From Claveliimonas bilis (GTDB lineage Bacteria; Bacillota; Clostridia; Lachnospirales; Lachnospiraceae): a stretch of DNA of 64,000 nt. A model generated the notes under the pieces. That model saw only the letters and a list, made by a program, of their open reading frames with translations, did no database searches and was not told the DNA's origin. The DNA lies in NCBI RefSeq assembly GCF_030296775.1, contig NZ_AP027742.1, positions 1,922,001-1,986,000 on the forward strand. Reading direction: 5' to 3'. Made by a program: the position numbers and the translations under genes. Shown in pieces: positions 7,478 to 15,488 of this stretch; position 1 is the first letter of the stretch, and each line of letters begins with the position of its first letter.

Positions 7478-8137
7478 CTATTTTTCAGCCCTATGTTCCT
7501 CGTTGTAACGGCTGATATTATAGGATAATCTCATCAGACTTTCCGATAAGTGTACATTTTCCACGATCACGTTATCCGGCAAATTCAGATCTGTATGAGC
7601 AAAGTTCCAAATCGCCTTTATCCCATAGTCCACCAGCTGATTTGCCACTTCAATTGCCTTTGCCTTAGGTATGGTGAGGATTCCGATCTCAATATCACTG
7701 TTCTTCATAAAATCTTCCAGCTCATCCATCATATAAATAGGCACTCCACGAATTGTCATTCCCTTTAAAGTAGGATTAACATCAAAAATGCCTTTTAATA
7801 CAAATCCCCGCTTTTCAAATCCTGCATGATTCGCCAGAGCATGACCCAGATTTCCTGCCCCGATGATGATCATTCCATGTTCTTCCTCCAAACCGAGGAT
7901 CTTTCCTATCTCTGTATAAAGATATTTCACATTATATCCATATCCCTGCTGGCCAAATCCGCCGAAATTATTTAAATCCTGCCGAATCTGGGATGCAGTT
8001 ACCTGCATTCTCTTACTCAGATCATTTGAAGAGATACGTTCCACCCCATTTTCAAGCAGTTCTCCTAAATACCTGTAATATCTTGGGAGCCTCCGTATGA
8101 CTGCCTGCGAAATTTCTCTGCTTTCCACTCTTTTCAC
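7478..8137 (-). CDS. rex: Redox-sensing transcriptional repressor Rex
   Basis: The 219-residue protein is a full-length Rex. The N-terminal winged helix (about 1-80) contains SQAVIRRLPRYYRYL and VTASQIRQDLNNFGGFGQQG, the family DNA-recognition region. The Rossmann domain follows, with IIGAGNLGHALANH for NAD(H) binding, and a C-terminal domain-swap helix. Known Rex proteins repress fermentation and NADH-oxidising genes and release DNA when NADH is high. A strong promoter lies 24 bases upstream of the ATG. I looked for the usual TTGTTAA-N4-TTAACAA operator near this promoter and near pta and gapA and did not find one. The ABC-F gene is divergent, as ydiF is near rex (ydiH) in Bacillus. Confidence 0.95.
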   Translation of the reverse strand: MKRVESREISQAVIRRLPRYYRYLGELLENGVERISSNDLSKRMQVTASQIRQDLNNFGGFGQQGYGYNVKYLYTEIGKILGLEEEHGMIIIGAGNLGHALANHAGFEKRGFVLKGIFDVNPTLKGMTIRGVPIYMMDELEDFMKNSDIEIGILTIPKAKAIEVANQLVDYGIKAIWNFAHTDLNLPDNVIVENVHLSESLMRLSYNISRYNEEHRAEK

Positions 8138-8160
8138 CTTCCCAATCTTTTTCTGTCTAC

Positions 8161-8189
8161 ATTATATAGAATTGTTTGTTCAAAGTCAA
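8161..8189 (-). promoter_or_regulatory. Promoter of rex
   Basis: Minus strand TTGACT (8189-8184), 17 bases, TATAAT (8166-8161). The -10 is perfect and the -35 has one mismatch. Confidence 0.8.
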
Positions 8190-8244
8190 ATTTTTGTTCG
8201 GAAAACTTTGGAATATTAGATTTTATATAAAGAATTGCAGAAAA

Positions 8245-8273
8245 TTGACACCTTCACAAATCACCGATATAAT
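8245..8273 (+). promoter_or_regulatory. Promoter of the ABC-F gene
   Basis: TTGACA (8245-8250), 17 bases, TATAAT (8268-8273): a perfect consensus promoter. The predicted start of transcription leaves a leader of only about 14 bases before GGAGG (8280-8284), so no attenuation leader of the antibiotic-resistance ABC-F type is possible. Confidence 0.88.
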
Positions 8274-8293
8274 AGTCCCGGAGGTATATATTT

Positions 8294-10216
8294 ATGATAC
8301 TAGCATGTCATTCAATTGAAAAAGCATTTGGTGAGGATGTCATTGTAAAAAACGGCTCCTTTCACATAGAAGAATATGAAAAAGCAGCACTTGTTGGGAT
8401 CAACGGGGCTGGAAAATCAACAATACTGAAAATGATTGTGGGAGAACTGCCACTTGACGGCGGCAGCATTACTTTATCGAAAGGAAAATCTCTTGGCTAT
8501 CTTTCCCAGCACCAGAATCTCTCCGGAGGAAACACTATTTACGAAGAAGTACGCACTGCCAAAGCGGAGATCATATCACTGGAAAAAGAGATCCGCCGAA
8601 TTGAACAGGAAATTCCCAACCTTGCGGGTGAACAACTTACTGAGCGTCTGAATACTTATCACCGTCTGTCTGACCGGTTTGAACGTGAAAATGGCTATGC
8701 CTACGAAAGTGAAATTGTGGGAGTACTCAAGGGGCTTGGTTTTGACGAAGAAGAATTCTCCAAACCGGTAGACGCTCTTTCCGGTGGTCAAAAAACACGT
8801 GTAGCATTAGGCAAACTTCTTCTTACAAAGCCGGATGTCCTTCTTTTAGATGAGCCTACCAACCATCTGGATCTTAATTCGATCTCCTGGCTGGAAACTT
8901 ATCTTCTGAATTATTCCGGTGCCGTGCTTATCGTCTCCCATGACCGCTATTTTCTCAATAGAGTGGTAACAAAGGTCATTGAAATTGAACAGGGTTCCAT
9001 TATGACCTACCTTGGCAATTACACAGATTACTCCCGTAAAAAGCAGCAAATCCGTGAAGCAAGGATGAAAGAGTATCTCAATCAGCAGCAGGAGATCCGC
9101 CATCAGGAAGCCGTGATCGAAAAGCTCCGCTCTTTTAACAGGGAAAAGTCAATCAAGCGTGCAGAAAGCCGGGAAAAAATGCTGGAAAAAATGGAACGCA
9201 TAGAAAAGCCTGCGGAGCAAAGAACAGATATCCATCTGGTGCTGGAACCTTCCTGTGTCAGCGGAAATGATGTTCTTTCCGTAGATCACTTAAGCAAATC
9301 TTTTCCGTCCCAGCCCCTTTTTGAAAATGTCAGCTTTGAAATCAAAAGAGGCGAACATGTAGCGGTAATCGGAGATAACGGAACCGGCAAGACAACCCTC
9401 CTTAAAATCCTGAACCGGGTTTTGCCTGCTGACAGCGGAAGCTTTACACTTGGGACAAACGTACATATCGGATACTATGACCAGGAACATCATGTTCTTC
9501 ATATGGAAAAAACTATATTTGAAGAAATTTCAGATGCATATCCTTCTCTTACAAACACGGAAATCCGCAATATGCTGGCTGCTTTCCTCTTCACGGGGGA
9601 TGATGTTTTTAAGCTTATCGGAGATTTAAGCGGCGGAGAGAGGGGACGTGTTTCCCTGGCAAAGCTTATGCTTTCGGAAGCAAATTTCCTCATTCTTGAT
9701 GAGCCTACCAACCATCTGGATATCGCCTCCAAAGAAATTCTGGAAAACGCTCTGAATAATTACAAAGGCACCGTCCTCTATGTGTCCCATGACCGATATT
9801 TCATTAACCAAACGGCCACCAGGATCCTGGAACTTGTAAACAAAACATTTGTCAACTATATCGGCAATTATGACTATTATCTGGAAAAGCGGGAGGAATT
9901 GACTGCCGCATACGCGTCAGTTCCATCCTGTGATAATGCCCCGGCTGCCGAAGCAGCCTCCGAAGCCAAGTTAAGCTGGCAGGAGCAAAAAGAAGAAAAG
10001 GCACGGGAACGGAAACGACAGAATGATCTGAAGAAGACAGAGGAACGCATAACTTCTCTGGAGGAACGAGACGGACAGATTGATGAGCTGATGGCGCTGG
10101 AGGAAGTATATACCAATTCTATACGCTGTCAGGAACTTGCAAAAGAAAAAGCCGACATCGCTGCTGAATTGGAGGAACTGTATGAAAAATGGGAGGCTCT
10201 CGCCTCCCAGGAATAA
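8294..10216 (+). CDS. ABC-F family ATPase, YdiF/Uup-like
   Basis: The 640-residue soluble protein has two ABC ATPase domains (about 1-250 and 320-530) joined by a charged P-site-interaction-type linker (about 245-305), and a charged coiled-coil tail (about 555-640). Each ATPase has Walker A (GINGAGKST and GDNGTGKTT), signature (LSGGQKTR and LSGGERGR) and Walker B followed by LLLDEPTNHLD / LILDEPTNHLD. There are no membrane parts. ABC-F proteins act on the ribosome E site to help translation; some give drug resistance. The coiled-coil tail and position beside rex point to the housekeeping YdiF/Uup group rather than a resistance type. GGAGG is nine bases before ATG. It converges on corA with a two-base gap. 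Confidence 0.9.
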   Translation: MILACHSIEKAFGEDVIVKNGSFHIEEYEKAALVGINGAGKSTILKMIVGELPLDGGSITLSKGKSLGYLSQHQNLSGGNTIYEEVRTAKAEIISLEKEIRRIEQEIPNLAGEQLTERLNTYHRLSDRFERENGYAYESEIVGVLKGLGFDEEEFSKPVDALSGGQKTRVALGKLLLTKPDVLLLDEPTNHLDLNSISWLETYLLNYSGAVLIVSHDRYFLNRVVTKVIEIEQGSIMTYLGNYTDYSRKKQQIREARMKEYLNQQQEIRHQEAVIEKLRSFNREKSIKRAESREKMLEKMERIEKPAEQRTDIHLVLEPSCVSGNDVLSVDHLSKSFPSQPLFENVSFEIKRGEHVAVIGDNGTGKTTLLKILNRVLPADSGSFTLGTNVHIGYYDQEHHVLHMEKTIFEEISDAYPSLTNTEIRNMLAAFLFTGDDVFKLIGDLSGGERGRVSLAKLMLSEANFLILDEPTNHLDIASKEILENALNNYKGTVLYVSHDRYFINQTATRILELVNKTFVNYIGNYDYYLEKREELTAAYASVPSCDNAPAAEAASEAKLSWQEQKEEKARERKRQNDLKKTEERITSLEERDGQIDELMALEEVYTNSIRCQELAKEKADIAAELEELYEKWEALASQE

Positions 10217-10218
10217 AA

Positions 10219-11130
10219 TCAGAGAATTTTTTTCTTTTTAAAGATTAAAATACAGACAACAATAACGATCAAACTTAGTGCAATAACGCCGGGATATCCG
10301 TTTTTCAGCTCCGGCATATTTTCAAAATTCATACCGTACCATCCGGTAATTAAGGTGAGGGGGAAGAAAATGGTGGACAACACAGTCAGAAACTGCATAT
10401 TACTATTCTGTTTTGCATCCACCTGTGCCTGATACAGATCTCGCACCTGCTGTGCGTATTCCAGCAAATGGGCAGTCCTCCCCATCAGCCGGTCTGCCCG
10501 ATTGGAAAGTGTCCCGAAATATTTGAGCTGTTTCTTGGCGAAAAATCCATTTTCATTTTCCTCTAGCTCTGTTCCCATATCCATCATTTCATCATAATAG
10601 CCGCGAAGTGTCAGAAGTTTTCTTCGTATCGGCATCAGTTCCCTCTGGAAATTTTCAATTTTCCCCTGCATGACGTCTTCTTCCATGCGCATAAGGATTT
10701 TCTCATACTGCATCAAAATTTCCTGATCTCTGCTCATAAATTCAGCAATAAAATTATATATGAACCGTTCCTTTGTTTCTCCTTGATGGGTCTTTTTTCT
10801 TTTGATCCTTCGGATCAGCCTCATAGAAAAATCTTCATCATCTACAAGTACAACATGATCTTGATTCACAAAAAAGTAAATGCGGTATCTGCTTCCAAGC
10901 ACGTCCAAAAGCCTGGGGATACAAAGTGTACCCGCCAGGCATTCCTGCTGTGTTTCCAGTTTACAAAATCCTATCTTGTTGGTCTGTATTTCATTTTCAT
11001 ACTGTATACCTGCCAATTCCAAATCCCGGCGGGCATTTTTGGAATCAGTGAGAAATACAGCCGGAGGCCTTGTCTCCTTCCATGTTTCTGTCTCAATCTG
11101 CTCCAGCCTCTCTCCGAGTTTCCATATCAT
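10219..11130 (-). CDS. CorA-family divalent cation transporter
   Basis: The 303-residue protein has the CorA plan: an N-terminal cytosolic domain (about 1-150), a long helical stalk (about 150-240), and two C-terminal membrane helices (about 243-263 and 278-297) separated by the pore-loop motif YGMN, here in TGWYGMNFENMPE. Relatives form pentamers carrying Mg, Co or Ni across the inner membrane. The ending is rich in Lys (cytoplasmic tail). It follows ppk by 18 bases and is probably part of the PstS-like - ppk - corA operon. Polyphosphate binds Mg strongly, so co-expression with a cation channel is plausible, though this is inference. The N-terminal domain is divergent, so the substrate is not certain. 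Confidence 0.88.
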   Translation of the reverse strand: MIWKLGERLEQIETETWKETRPPAVFLTDSKNARRDLELAGIQYENEIQTNKIGFCKLETQQECLAGTLCIPRLLDVLGSRYRIYFFVNQDHVVLVDDEDFSMRLIRRIKRKKTHQGETKERFIYNFIAEFMSRDQEILMQYEKILMRMEEDVMQGKIENFQRELMPIRRKLLTLRGYYDEMMDMGTELEENENGFFAKKQLKYFGTLSNRADRLMGRTAHLLEYAQQVRDLYQAQVDAKQNSNMQFLTVLSTIFFPLTLITGWYGMNFENMPELKNGYPGVIALSLIVIVVCILIFKKKKIL

Positions 11131-11148
11131 TCTACCACCACTCTTATC

Positions 11149-13206
11149 TTACATTTGTCCTGCCTTTTCGTAAGCCTCCTCATAAAAGTATTCCTGTGAG
11201 TTTACTTTAACTGTGTCAGGATCCTCGATGCGAACAAAAAGGTAACTGCCGTCAGCCGTTTCGTGCCGGGCCTTCTGATTGTCCCTCAACATAAGATCAA
11301 ACATAGCCTGAAGTCGTTCTTTCAGATTCTGCTGCTGCACAGGCGCCGCCACTTCTACCCGGCGCACAGTATTCCGAGTCATAAAATCTGCAGAGGCAAT
11401 GTAATATCTGGCCCGCTCACCGCATCCGAAAATATAGATTCTGGAGTGTTCCAGAAATCTTCCGACAATACTGATGACACGGATATTTTCTGTTTTTCCC
11501 TCTACCTGTGGAACCAGACAGCAGATACCGCGAATCACCATATCGATCTTCACTCCTGCTTCCGACGCTTCTATCAGTTTATCAATAATTTTTTTATCTG
11601 TCAAAGAATTTAACTTTAATCCGATATAAGCCGGCTGTCCTTCTTTTGCCTGCCTTATCTCTTCGTCCATCATTTCCAGGACCCGGGACTGAAGGCATTT
11701 TGGCGCTACTAAGAGGTGACCGGAACTTTCCACAGTCTCACCTTTTGACAACGCCTGGAATACAGCTGATGCTTCCATGCCAATATCCGGATCTGCCGTC
11801 ATAAGAGAAAGGTCTGTATACAGTCTGGAGGTCTTTTCATTGTAATTTCCTGTTCCGATTTGAGTGATATATTCAATCTTTCCTTCATTTTTTCTCGTGA
11901 TGAGACAGAGTTTGGAGTGCACCTTATAGCCTTCCAGACCATAGATCACCTGACAGCCTGCCTCTTCCAGACGTCTTGACCATTCGATGTTATTTTCCTC
12001 ATCAAATCTGGCACGCAGCTCTACCAAAACAACAACTTCTTTTCCGTTTTCCGCTGCTTCCACCAATGCCTCAACAACCTTACTTTGTTTTGCCAGACGA
12101 TAGAGTGTCATTTTAATGGAAATCACGTTTTCATCCTCTGCCGCCTCATTTAGCATCCGGAGGAACGGACGAATGGATTCATAGGGATAGGAAAGCATTT
12201 TATCCGACTCTCTTATCTGCTCTATAATTCCTCTTCCATCTTCAAAAGAGGAAGATTTCTGTGGCGTGCGCTTTTCAAAAAACAATTCCGGGTTCTTTCT
12301 TAGCATATCCTGGATTTTAGAAGAAAAAGACAGATCAAGGGGTGTGCTTTGACGAAATACTCTGGCTTCCTCTAAATCAAGGTATTTACAGAGAATACCT
12401 ACGATATCTCCGTCCATCTCCCTGGACAGTTCCAGCCGGACCGGAGAAAGTTTTTTTCTTTTTTTAATTAAATCTGCCATAAATTCCCTATAATCCAAAT
12501 CTTCATCATATAAGGCGTCAGCATCTATATCTGCATTTCTCGTTACGCGGATCAAGGATTTGGCCCTGATCTGATAGCCTTTAAAAACTCTCGGCATGTA
12601 ATGCAGAATCAGTTCTTCAGCCAGCATATATGTTCCTGACCTGTCCGGAACTGCAATCAGCCTTTCTACCATGCTATTTGTACAGGGAATGATACCGATC
12701 CTCTGCTTCTTACTCTTTGTTTCCAAAACAGCTACCGCGTAAATTTCTTTATTTCTAAGAAACGGAAATGGCTGACGCTTTCCTACTACGGTAGGTGATA
12801 TTAAAGGCTCAATCTCCATGGCAAAATATCTTTCCATATACTCACTTTCGCTTTTTTCCATACTTCTGAAATCTGTAAGGGAAAATCCCCACTCTTTCAG
12901 ACGTGACATCAGTTCTTCATAAACTTTGTCACGGCGTTCATTTAATATATGAACTCTTCTCAAAATTTCCTCAATCTGCTCCTTTGCAGTCATATTGGTC
13001 TTATTATCTTTGATTTTTTTGCCAAGAAGGCTTTGGTCCTGCAAAGAACCAACCCGGACCATAAAAAATTCATCCAGATTAGTCTGATAGATAGACGCAA
13101 AAGAGAGCCTTTCACACAAAGGGACCTCTTTATTCTCCGCTTCCTCCAGCACTCTTTCATTAAATTTCAGCCAAGATAACTCTCGATTCATATATACATT
13201 ATCCAT
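11149..13206 (-). CDS. ppk1: Polyphosphate kinase 1
   Basis: The 685-residue protein is full length for PPK1, which moves the terminal phosphate of ATP onto polyphosphate. It begins YMNRELSWLKFNERVLEEA, as in the family N-domain. The head domain follows, then two phospholipase D-like catalytic domains. The catalytic His is in YKVHSKLCLI (about residue 425) and the second domain has SRIYIFG near 595. The Arg-rich VELRARFDEENNI stretch forms part of the active site. It lies 13 bases after the PstS-like gene, in the operon that carries a Pho-box-like promoter, so induction by phosphate limitation is likely. GAGAA lies just before ATG. Confidence 0.95.
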   Translation of the reverse strand: MDNVYMNRELSWLKFNERVLEEAENKEVPLCERLSFASIYQTNLDEFFMVRVGSLQDQSLLGKKIKDNKTNMTAKEQIEEILRRVHILNERRDKVYEELMSRLKEWGFSLTDFRSMEKSESEYMERYFAMEIEPLISPTVVGKRQPFPFLRNKEIYAVAVLETKSKKQRIGIIPCTNSMVERLIAVPDRSGTYMLAEELILHYMPRVFKGYQIRAKSLIRVTRNADIDADALYDEDLDYREFMADLIKKRKKLSPVRLELSREMDGDIVGILCKYLDLEEARVFRQSTPLDLSFSSKIQDMLRKNPELFFEKRTPQKSSSFEDGRGIIEQIRESDKMLSYPYESIRPFLRMLNEAAEDENVISIKMTLYRLAKQSKVVEALVEAAENGKEVVVLVELRARFDEENNIEWSRRLEEAGCQVIYGLEGYKVHSKLCLITRKNEGKIEYITQIGTGNYNEKTSRLYTDLSLMTADPDIGMEASAVFQALSKGETVESSGHLLVAPKCLQSRVLEMMDEEIRQAKEGQPAYIGLKLNSLTDKKIIDKLIEASEAGVKIDMVIRGICCLVPQVEGKTENIRVISIVGRFLEHSRIYIFGCGERARYYIASADFMTRNTVRRVEVAAPVQQQNLKERLQAMFDLMLRDNQKARHETADGSYLFVRIEDPDTVKVNSQEYFYEEAYEKAGQM

Positions 13207-13219
13207 TTCTCTTCATCCT

Positions 13220-14110
13220 CTATTCTTGTGTATTTTCCCATTTACTGATCTTCCCAGTGTAAATTTTCTCCACTGTATCCATTGAAATATCTTCTGTCGG
13301 ATTTTCTTCATTTACGATTACACGGATCCCGTCTTTTGCAACTGCTTCTGCTTCTAATACTTCTGTCTCATATTGATACAGCTGCCGGGATACCATAGCA
13401 ATATCACATTTTCCTGTCAGTACATCTGTAATTCCTTTTGAAGAATCTGATACTTCCACCTCAATCTGTGCATTGGAATTTTCTTTCTCATAGTCATCTG
13501 CCAACTGCTCTATCACCGGTGCCAGAGTTGTGGAGCCGTGTATTTTTAAAGTACCGGATGCCTGATTAGATAAAAAGACTTCTTTACCTCCTATGGGCAC
13601 AAAAAACTCTGATACGGTTTCCTGTCCCTTCCCCGTCACATAGTTTATAAAATCTGTTTCCAGATCCTTGTCTTCACTTGTGTGGGCAAGATAAAGCGTT
13701 CGTGTAAGCGGATAGCTGTCTTCTTCAATAGTTTCATCCTCTGCTTTTTGTCCATCTATCGTAATTTCTTTTGCTCCATCCCCTTCCTGAAGATCCGTAC
13801 TGTAAGTGACATAGCCGATACCATTCTTTTCTCCTGCAACAGCACGGAGCATATCTTCTCCGGATGTCTCTGTCTGCGCAGATTCTGTGATCTCATCCTG
13901 GTCATCTACCCCTTCTATATTCAGACCAAGTGCCTCTGCAAAGCTGCTTCTGGTACCTGATCCATTCTCCCTCGTTATCGGAATCACTTCGCCCATTTCC
14001 TGCCATTTTGACGAATCAGATGAACCGGATCCAGACGTACTTCCACATCCTCCTATCACTCCGGCAATGCAGGCAGCCGCCAAAAAGTATACTACATTCT
14101 TTCGTTTCAT
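13220..14110 (-). CDS. PstS-like phosphate-binding lipoprotein with swapped halves
   Basis: The 296-residue lipoprotein has a signal peptide (about 1-21) and lipobox VIGGC with Cys22. The mature protein looks like PstS with its halves in reversed order. Residues about 41-175 match the usual C-terminal half: EVIPITRENGSGTRSSF, GIGYVTYS, EITIDG and SYPLTRTLYL. Residues about 187-293 match the usual N-terminal half: KIHGSTTLAPVIEQLADDY, SDSSKGITDVLTGKCDIAMV, then VNEENP and IYTGKISKW. Both ends carry a similar SKW stretch (35-36 and 290-291). The phosphate-contact motifs GSTT, SSKG and GSGTR are all present, so binding is plausible. No pstCAB is in the window, so it may serve a distant transporter or sensing. 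It heads the ppk-corA operon and has a Pho-box-like promoter. Confidence 0.85.
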   Translation of the reverse strand: MKRKNVVYFLAAACIAGVIGGCGSTSGSGSSDSSKWQEMGEVIPITRENGSGTRSSFAEALGLNIEGVDDQDEITESAQTETSGEDMLRAVAGEKNGIGYVTYSTDLQEGDGAKEITIDGQKAEDETIEEDSYPLTRTLYLAHTSEDKDLETDFINYVTGKGQETVSEFFVPIGGKEVFLSNQASGTLKIHGSTTLAPVIEQLADDYEKENSNAQIEVEVSDSSKGITDVLTGKCDIAMVSRQLYQYETEVLEAEAVAKDGIRVIVNEENPTEDISMDTVEKIYTGKISKWENTQE

Positions 14111-14200: not shown

Positions 14201-14235
14201 AATACCCGGGGTTTTGCGCAGTTTTACCCACCACT

Positions 14236-14290
14236 AAAAGCAATCTGGGACGTAACAAAGTTAAACTTTGTTACGTCCCAGATTGCTTTT
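14236..14290. repeat. Perfect 27-bp inverted repeat after icd, likely terminator
   Basis: Positions 14236-14262 and 14264-14290 are perfect inverted copies around a single base. The arms begin AAAAGCAATCTGGGACG and meet at CAAAGTT-A-AACTTTG. The outer A and T runs make it terminator-like in both directions; it overlaps the icd stop codon. The TGGGACGTA core recurs at 48305, so it may be a mobile or dispersed palindrome used as a terminator. Confidence 0.75.
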
Positions 14291-15488
14291 ATGCCAGCTT
14301 CTCGGCAATTGCTTTAATGAAGTTTTCGCTGTTGAGTACAGTCGGATTTTCTATTGTTGTAATGAGTGCCAGGTCTTTTGTCATTTTGCCTTCCTCGATC
14401 GTATCGATAGTGGCTTTTTCCAATTTATCTGCAAAATCCTGAAGTTCTTTATTTCCGTCCAGTTCACCTCTCTTGCGAAGCGCTCCTGTCCATGCAAAGA
14501 TAGTTGCCACAGAATTTGTAGAAGTTTCCTCACCTTTCAGGTGCTTATAGTAATGACGCTGTACTGTTCCATGTGCTGCCTCGTACTCATAATAGCCTTC
14601 CGGGGATACGAGAACAGAGGTCATCATAGCAAGGGAACCAAATGCAGAAGATACCATATCGCTCATGACATCACCGTCATAGTTTTTGCAGGCCCAGATA
14701 TAGCCGCCTTCTGATTTCATTACACGTGCCACAGCATCATCGATCAGAGTGTAGAAATATTCAATGCCTTCTTCCTTGAATTTTGATTCAAATTCTTTCT
14801 CATAAATTTCCTGAAAAATATCTTTAAATGTATGGTCATATTTTTTGGAAATTGTATCTTTTGTCGCAAACCAGAGATCCTGATGAGTGTCCAGCGCATA
14901 ACTAAAACAGCTCCTTGCAAAACTTGCGATAGAATCATCGATATTGTGCATTCCCTGTACAATACCTGCACCGGTAAAGTTATGTACAAGCTCTCTTGTC
15001 TCGCTTCCATCTTCTGCTGTATACACAAGCTCTACTTTTCCGGCTCCCGGAATCTTCATCTCTGCCCCTTTATAGACGTCACCATAAGCATGTCTTGCGA
15101 TGGTGATCGGTTTCTTCCAATTTTTCACACAGGGTTCAATCCCCTTTACAACAATAGGTGCTCTGAATACAGTGCCGTCCAGGATTGCACGAATGGTTCC
15201 GTTAGGACTTTTCCACATTTCCTTCAGATCATATTCCTTCATACGCGCTGCATTAGGTGTGATTGTCGCACACTTTACGGCAACTTTATATTTTTTTGTC
15301 GCGTTGGCAGAATCCACAGTCACCTGATCATTTGTTTCATTGCGGTGCTCAAGACCCAGATCATAATACTCGGTGTTCAGTTCAATAAATGGTTCCAAAA
15401 GATTCTCCTTGATCATTTTCCAGAGAATCCTTGTCATCTCATCTCCATCCATCTCTACAATAGGGGTGGTCATTTTGATTTTTTCCAT
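14289..15488 (-). CDS. icd: Isocitrate dehydrogenase (NADP-type, dimeric subgroup)
   Basis: The 399-residue protein belongs to the eukaryote-like dimeric isocitrate dehydrogenases that make 2-oxoglutarate from isocitrate. Visible motifs are [19 protein letters not shown] (N-terminus), KSPNGTIR for substrate phosphate/carboxylate binding, the metal-site Asp in [12 protein letters not shown], and [11 protein letters not shown] near the cofactor pocket. Length is typical (about 400). The start has GGAG ten bases upstream. It is the third gene of the Re-citrate synthase - GntR - icd operon and supplies carbon for glutamate. NADP preference is assumed from the subgroup. Its TAA lies within the long palindrome that probably ends the transcript. 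Confidence 0.93.

Follow-up and report, generated by a model that had tools for sequence, protein, structure and literature searches.

Natural circular permutations of binding proteins have, to our knowledge, rarely been documented. One of them is found in TpMglB-2 (Tp0684), from Treponema pallidum. This binding lipoprotein retains its ligand binding despite the permutation, and its authors propose the term 'Type Ic' for such proteins; it is unlike the protein described here in having a Type I fold, a different ligand (glucose) and another cut site (PMC4990184, excerpted text). The canonical phosphate-binding protein PstS (PF12849, TIGR02136; PDB 4Q8R, 4GD5) shares both of its halves, the phosphate-site residues and lipoprotein export with our protein, yet differs from it in the order of the halves, the position of the lipid anchor and the positions of both chain ends. 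The closest described system is 4H1X (SP_2084, 'PstS 2', from Streptococcus pneumoniae TIGR4, released 2012), which shares with our protein both the permuted order and the fold, and a permuted PstS has therefore had a solved structure since 2012. At two loci from other Streptococcus species (L153, L160) the permuted gene heads a pst operon, whereas the clade of the protein described here lacks pstC. Our assignment of SP_2084 to one of the two pneumococcal Pst systems is presumptive, and draws on the phoB/phoR-like genes that precede the permuted gene at L153 and L160.

For the Na+/Pi cotransporters with a PhoU domain (PF02690 + PF01895), which are gene neighbours of our protein's clade, we know of no binding protein that forms part of the system, and a literature search returned no paper on a pairing of the two. 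Within the open-access literature, which covers few subscription papers or preprints, we found no paper naming 4H1X and 10 naming SP_2084, and no mention of permuted PstS in the titles or the opening parts of abstracts among the matches listed. Both pneumococcal Pst systems have been implicated in phosphate uptake, and the string 'permut' is absent from the main text of the report concerned, as excerpted (PMC4913102).

Order of the halves and fold of the window lipoprotein

The lipoprotein gene in the window (the whole stretch of 64,000 nucleotides that was analysed) encodes a PstS in which the second half precedes the first (Table 1). PF12849 matches the protein in two stretches (E 5.9e-34, 118.5 bits against a cut-off of 27), the better of which places profile positions 5-125 at aa 181-293, while a six-frame search with this profile locates positions 122-264 in the front half of that frame; both halves of the profile are present, in the order B then A rather than the canonical A then B. 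TIGR02136 (ptsS_2) likewise gives a match split in two, and at 151.9 bits it falls below the subfamily cut-off of 206.6. Half-profiles built from relatives read the window protein as B then A and 38 canonical relatives as A then B, with RENGSGTR in the window B half and GSTT, SDSSKG and IYTGKI-SKW in the A half, so that the cut separates the Trp that follows IYTGKI from the I-x-I-x-RE strand. The original prediction had described just such a permutation and cut, with all phosphate motifs kept and with halves at about 41-175 and 187-293, and it is borne out on each point, the half boundaries being right to within a few residues.

Table 1 Positions, within the window, of the permuted lipoprotein gene, its parts and the features around it
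Feature	Position	Strand	Details
CorA-family transporter gene	10219..11130	-	303 aa; final gene of the run; PF01544 E 7e-43
ppk1, polyphosphate kinase gene	11149..13206	-	685 aa; 13-nt gap to the lipoprotein gene upstream
Circularly permuted PstS-like lipoprotein gene	13220..14110	-	296 aa, ATG start; PF12849, TIGR02136, half-profiles
A half, aa 180-296 (canonical PstS first half)	13223..13573	-	G192-S193-T194-T195, S223-S224, D236, W291; half-profile, PF12849
B half, aa 40-177 (canonical PstS second half)	13580..13993	-	R47-E48-x-G50-S51-G52-T53-R54; half-profile, PF12849
Signal peptide (aa 1-21) and lipobox Cys22	14045..14110	-	judged by eye from sequence
Perfect inverted repeat	14235..14291	.	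28 nt, 1-nt spacer; between the isocitrate dehydrogenase and lipoprotein genes

The signal peptide and lipobox cysteine, both read by eye, mark the protein as a lipoprotein, and the cysteine is present in 44 of 48 aligned relatives and in all 22 sequences of the alignment of the protein's own clade. The phosphate-site positions, which we take from Escherichia coli PstS with equivalences set by eye, are strongly conserved: R47, S51, G52, T53, S193 and S223 occur in 31/31 rows of the clade and D236 in 29/31. Furthermore, when 12 permuted relatives are combined into a profile, PDB 4H1X aligns with it over a single collinear stretch (6e-88, profile positions 35-297), whereas 4Q8R and 4GD5 align in two swapped stretches, as inspection of the alignments confirmed, and the five chains ranked next after these likewise in two stretches. 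Given this collinear match and the strength of the PF12849 match, the permuted order is not a chance match.

An AlphaFold2 single-chain model, made from an alignment of 48 permuted proteins (that of the window and 47 from 80 named-genome loci), has a mean pLDDT of 90.0 and a pTM of 0.82. A Foldseek search of the PDB with this model places 4H1X first (E 6e-29, TM 0.72/0.82, 36% identity over 259 alignment columns), far ahead of the second match (E 4.5e-7, TM 0.33). No canonical PstS is among the 50 best matches, as expected of an order-dependent search. The evidence supports a fold and a phosphate site as in PstS, and to judge from sequence and model the protein would bind phosphate. The chain would start and end in a surface loop between IYTGKI-x-x-W and I-x-I-x-RE, the former N- and C-termini being joined by a short linker; we take the chain ends and lipid anchor to lie accordingly in the loop after IYTGKI..W, in the second lobe rather than the first, with the hinge strands uncut.

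The original prediction had allowed for either a working rewired fold or a half-swapped dimer. The crystal structure of 4H1X, which no other PDB entry approaches as a match to the model, indicates that the fold works and that half-swapping is unneeded. Permuted constructs of ribose-binding protein did show swapped elements (PMC10601554, excerpted text), but the high-confidence single-chain model and its 259-column match to 4H1X need no partner, and we regard a half-swapped dimer as very improbable.

We attach a negligible probability to the reversed order being an assembly error or gene debris, the former of which had been named in advance as a possible undoing of the permutation. The source genome is a single contig of 3.11 Mb, 99.99% complete, in which PF12849 exceeds its cut-off in four stretches; these fall in pairs on two genes, each of which is permuted. 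Moreover, 175 permuted rows come from many assemblies and one permuted protein has a crystal structure. The second permuted gene (L007:7188-8108) heads an operon read as pstC, pstA, pstB, phoU, phoB and phoR, genes that were named from sequence and order and later served as queries in the neighbour searches. Two further PF12849 matches fall short of the cut-off, and their sequences are those of LysR-type regulators, not of PstS. The profile search of the whole genome found no canonical PstS, and the organism's Pst pump appears to rely on a permuted binding protein as well.

Distribution and origins of the permuted form

That the permuted form might be rare, as the original prediction implied, turned out to be wrong, and the window protein is far from unique: permuted PstS is common in gut Firmicutes. 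In a set of 41 genomes, made up of the source and 40 relatives, matches were obtained in 27, of which 9 are permuted and 18 canonical. Profile A1, of 12 permuted proteins, was used on family, order and phylum samples that overlap. In the family sample it matched 177/250 genomes at E <= 0.001 and 79/250 at E <= 1e-60; these 79, picked by eye from the search table, are taken as carrying the permuted form, and in one of them (G195) the gene has an internal stop. The level of 1e-40 was reached in 79/245 genomes of the order-level sample, including one canonical half match (G333), and in 11/299 of the phylum-level sample, including one ABAB fusion (G776). Among named genomes, a biased sample, the best 80 of at least 575 relatives are all permuted, and include Blautia, Anaerostipes, Ruminococcus bromii, Intestinimonas, Mordavella and Streptococcus. 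Permuted PstS is also present in records assigned to Spirochaetia (two) and Synergistaceae (one) (L178, L186, L187), reflecting either phylum-crossing transfer or binning error.

For phylogenetic analysis a cut ORF (L117), a broken gene (L200) and repeats of the same locus were left out. In a tree of 74 rows, built with the halves rearranged into a common order, a single clade (support 98/97) takes in 42 of 44 permuted rows, and inside it the window protein belongs to a clade of 21 rows (100/99); in a FastTree analysis covering 215 rows (175 permuted, 38 canonical and 2 ABAB units) the latter clade comprises 31 rows (SH 0.997). A profile of this clade reached 1e-70 in 70 of 295 genomes of an order-level search and 1e-98 in only 4 (the source genome G000, G477, G454 and G478), the other genomes scoring 1.7e-88 or weaker and, where placed in trees, falling in the other permuted clade, so that the window protein's clade appears uncommon in this sample.

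The permutation arose at least twice, at what by eye is the same site, a result that looks new. L227 (G309), a permuted protein from another family of the order, has halves 63% and 64% identical to those of the canonical L267 (G328) from its own family, while its best match to another permuted protein in the same search is 42%. Once L267 is added, 44 of the 45 permuted rows fall to the same side of a single branch (97/96), L227 and L267 pair with full support (100/100), and a single origin of all permuted PstS is rejected (lnL difference 103.6, AU p 9e-10; excluding L036, L035 and L033). The first tree, three of whose rows had been flagged as long, did not lead to rejection of a single origin (p 0.344); dropping those three rows and L033, a choice made after the tree was seen, gave p 0.005. 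L219 was placed apart from the main clade by the first tree and, on a long branch, on the main permuted side by the last; the latter tree puts the very divergent permuted PstS-like protein L280:1486-2433 (-) on that side too, again on a long branch. L280 adjoins a long PstC-like frame (470 aa).

The most likely route to the permutation is a tandem duplication followed by fusion and then loss of the outer halves, a route that would have been taken at least twice. This route, already envisaged in the original prediction along with a search for tandem genes in relatives, is plausible and supported by living intermediates: a tandem canonical pair directly before pstC (L276:190-1101 and 1420-2286, +), and fused ABAB proteins of 527 aa, likewise encoded immediately ahead of pstC, in a pair of species from the same genus (L106:1099-2682, -; L286:1498-3081, -). 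The two units of the L106 protein are 73% identical and pair with each other among canonical proteins; they therefore illustrate the path rather than represent the direct ancestor of the main permuted clade. Tandem pairs of permuted genes before pstC also occur (L221:6873-7760 and 7880-8770, -; L073:395-1246 and 1498-2385, -).

A repeated SKW at the two ends of the protein had likewise been read as a sign of tandem duplication. The repeat is there (aa 34-36 and 289-291), but the N-terminal W occurs in 1 of 22 aligned clade members, namely the window protein, with L in 18/22, which makes the repeat weak evidence for duplication and leaves it unsupported as an ancestral scar in this clade. Over the whole permuted set an aromatic residue occupies that place in 76/163 proteins, W in 32. 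Counting back from the RE motif, a W stands at 11 residues in 32 permuted proteins (163 scored of 166) and at 15 residues in all 31 canonical proteins scored (of 38); a duplication scar in the whole set is possible, with a register that differs by 4.

Gene neighbourhood and proposed role

In the window the lipoprotein is encoded with ppk1 and corA rather than with pstC, pstA and pstB. Ten genomes of the genus, the source included, were searched, of which five have the lipoprotein gene, three only canonical PstS and two no match, and the order lipoprotein - ppk1 - corA is found in all five. The inverted repeat upstream touches the last codon of the isocitrate dehydrogenase gene and would form a very stable hairpin (minimum free energy -52 kcal/mol, z -9.6); it is possibly a terminator, which would set pstS-ppk1-corA apart as its own unit.

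Elsewhere in the clade the prevailing neighbour is a Na+/Pi cotransporter gene. With neighbour genes located by one query each, it lies within 400 nt in 22 of the 31 clade rows, always on the same strand (downstream in 16, upstream in 6; in 21 the two genes overlap or lie no more than 30 nt apart), and the four cotransporter genes checked by Pfam combine PF02690 with a PhoU domain (PF01895). Within the same distance ppk1 is found in 7 rows (in L114 and L216 it lies at 2852 nt), corA in 1 and pstC in 0/31. Many rows are close kin (e.g. L126/L133, L114/L216, L115/L116/L120, L010-L014), and these counts are accordingly not 31 independent cases. By comparison, pstC lies downstream within 400 nt in 133/144 other permuted rows, some of the 11 exceptions sitting near a contig end (L085, L105, L155), and within 400 nt in 36/38 canonical rows, whereas the Na+/Pi gene adjoins two of the former (L051, L134) and one of the latter (L191). 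The order cotransporter - lipoprotein - ppk1 - corA in L126 and L133 links the arrangement at the window with the rest of the clade, and L120 reads lipoprotein - cotransporter - corA - ppx - ppk1. One row, L218, has none of the Na+/Pi, ppk1, corA or pstC genes within 5 kb. A permuted lipoprotein gene with an internal stop adjoins a Na+/Pi cotransporter gene at L200:2006-2737 (+). The separation of the clade from the pst operon and its cotransporter neighbourhood look new.

We consider it likely that the window protein is a permuted, lipid-anchored, two-lobed PstS-type protein, of duplication origin at least twice, that serves a phosphate storage module. The clade would have left the pst operon, and its genes now sit with ppk1 and with those for a Na+/phosphate cotransporter and a CorA transporter; the lipoprotein may capture phosphate at the cell surface and raise or report the supply to a polyphosphate-storage module, phosphate would enter through the cotransporter or through a Pst pump encoded elsewhere, Ppk1 would polymerise it and CorA would import Mg2+ as counter-ion. 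The cotransporter gene of the source genome lies elsewhere, and any partnership with the lipoprotein there is conjectural. Two further considerations count against this role, namely that PhoU-domain Na+/Pi proteins can be exporters, and that we know of no precedent for a binding protein of the PstS kind working with a Na+/Pi-type transporter.

The existence of a pst operon with a permuted PstS in the same genome, together with the retained phosphate-site residues, also suits a less probable reading, in which the lipoprotein is a second substrate-binding subunit for PstCAB encoded elsewhere and its adjacency to ppk1 reflects co-regulation only; however, the clade is well separated (100/99), has no pstC within 400 nt in any of its 31 rows and adjoins the cotransporter gene in 22. 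That tight pairing, on either side of the gene, could alternatively mean that the lipoprotein is a phosphate sensor or regulator that gates import or export by the cotransporter from outside and delivers nothing. The lipobox and two-lobed fold, the usual architecture of delivery, are nonetheless kept, and we think this unlikely, more so than the subunit reading. Capture of phosphate for polyphosphate storage is the role we favour.

Permuted PstS is thus a common protein with a solved structure whose permutation has apparently not been remarked on, which arose at least twice at one site and whose intermediates are still alive. It offers a natural experiment in how duplication yields permutation, and in what permutation does to a hinge-bending protein. 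Order-dependent sequence and structure searches split or miss it, with consequences for how phosphate uptake is annotated in gut Firmicutes. Should the link with the cotransporter prove functional, this binding protein and secondary transporter would form a pairing that is new.
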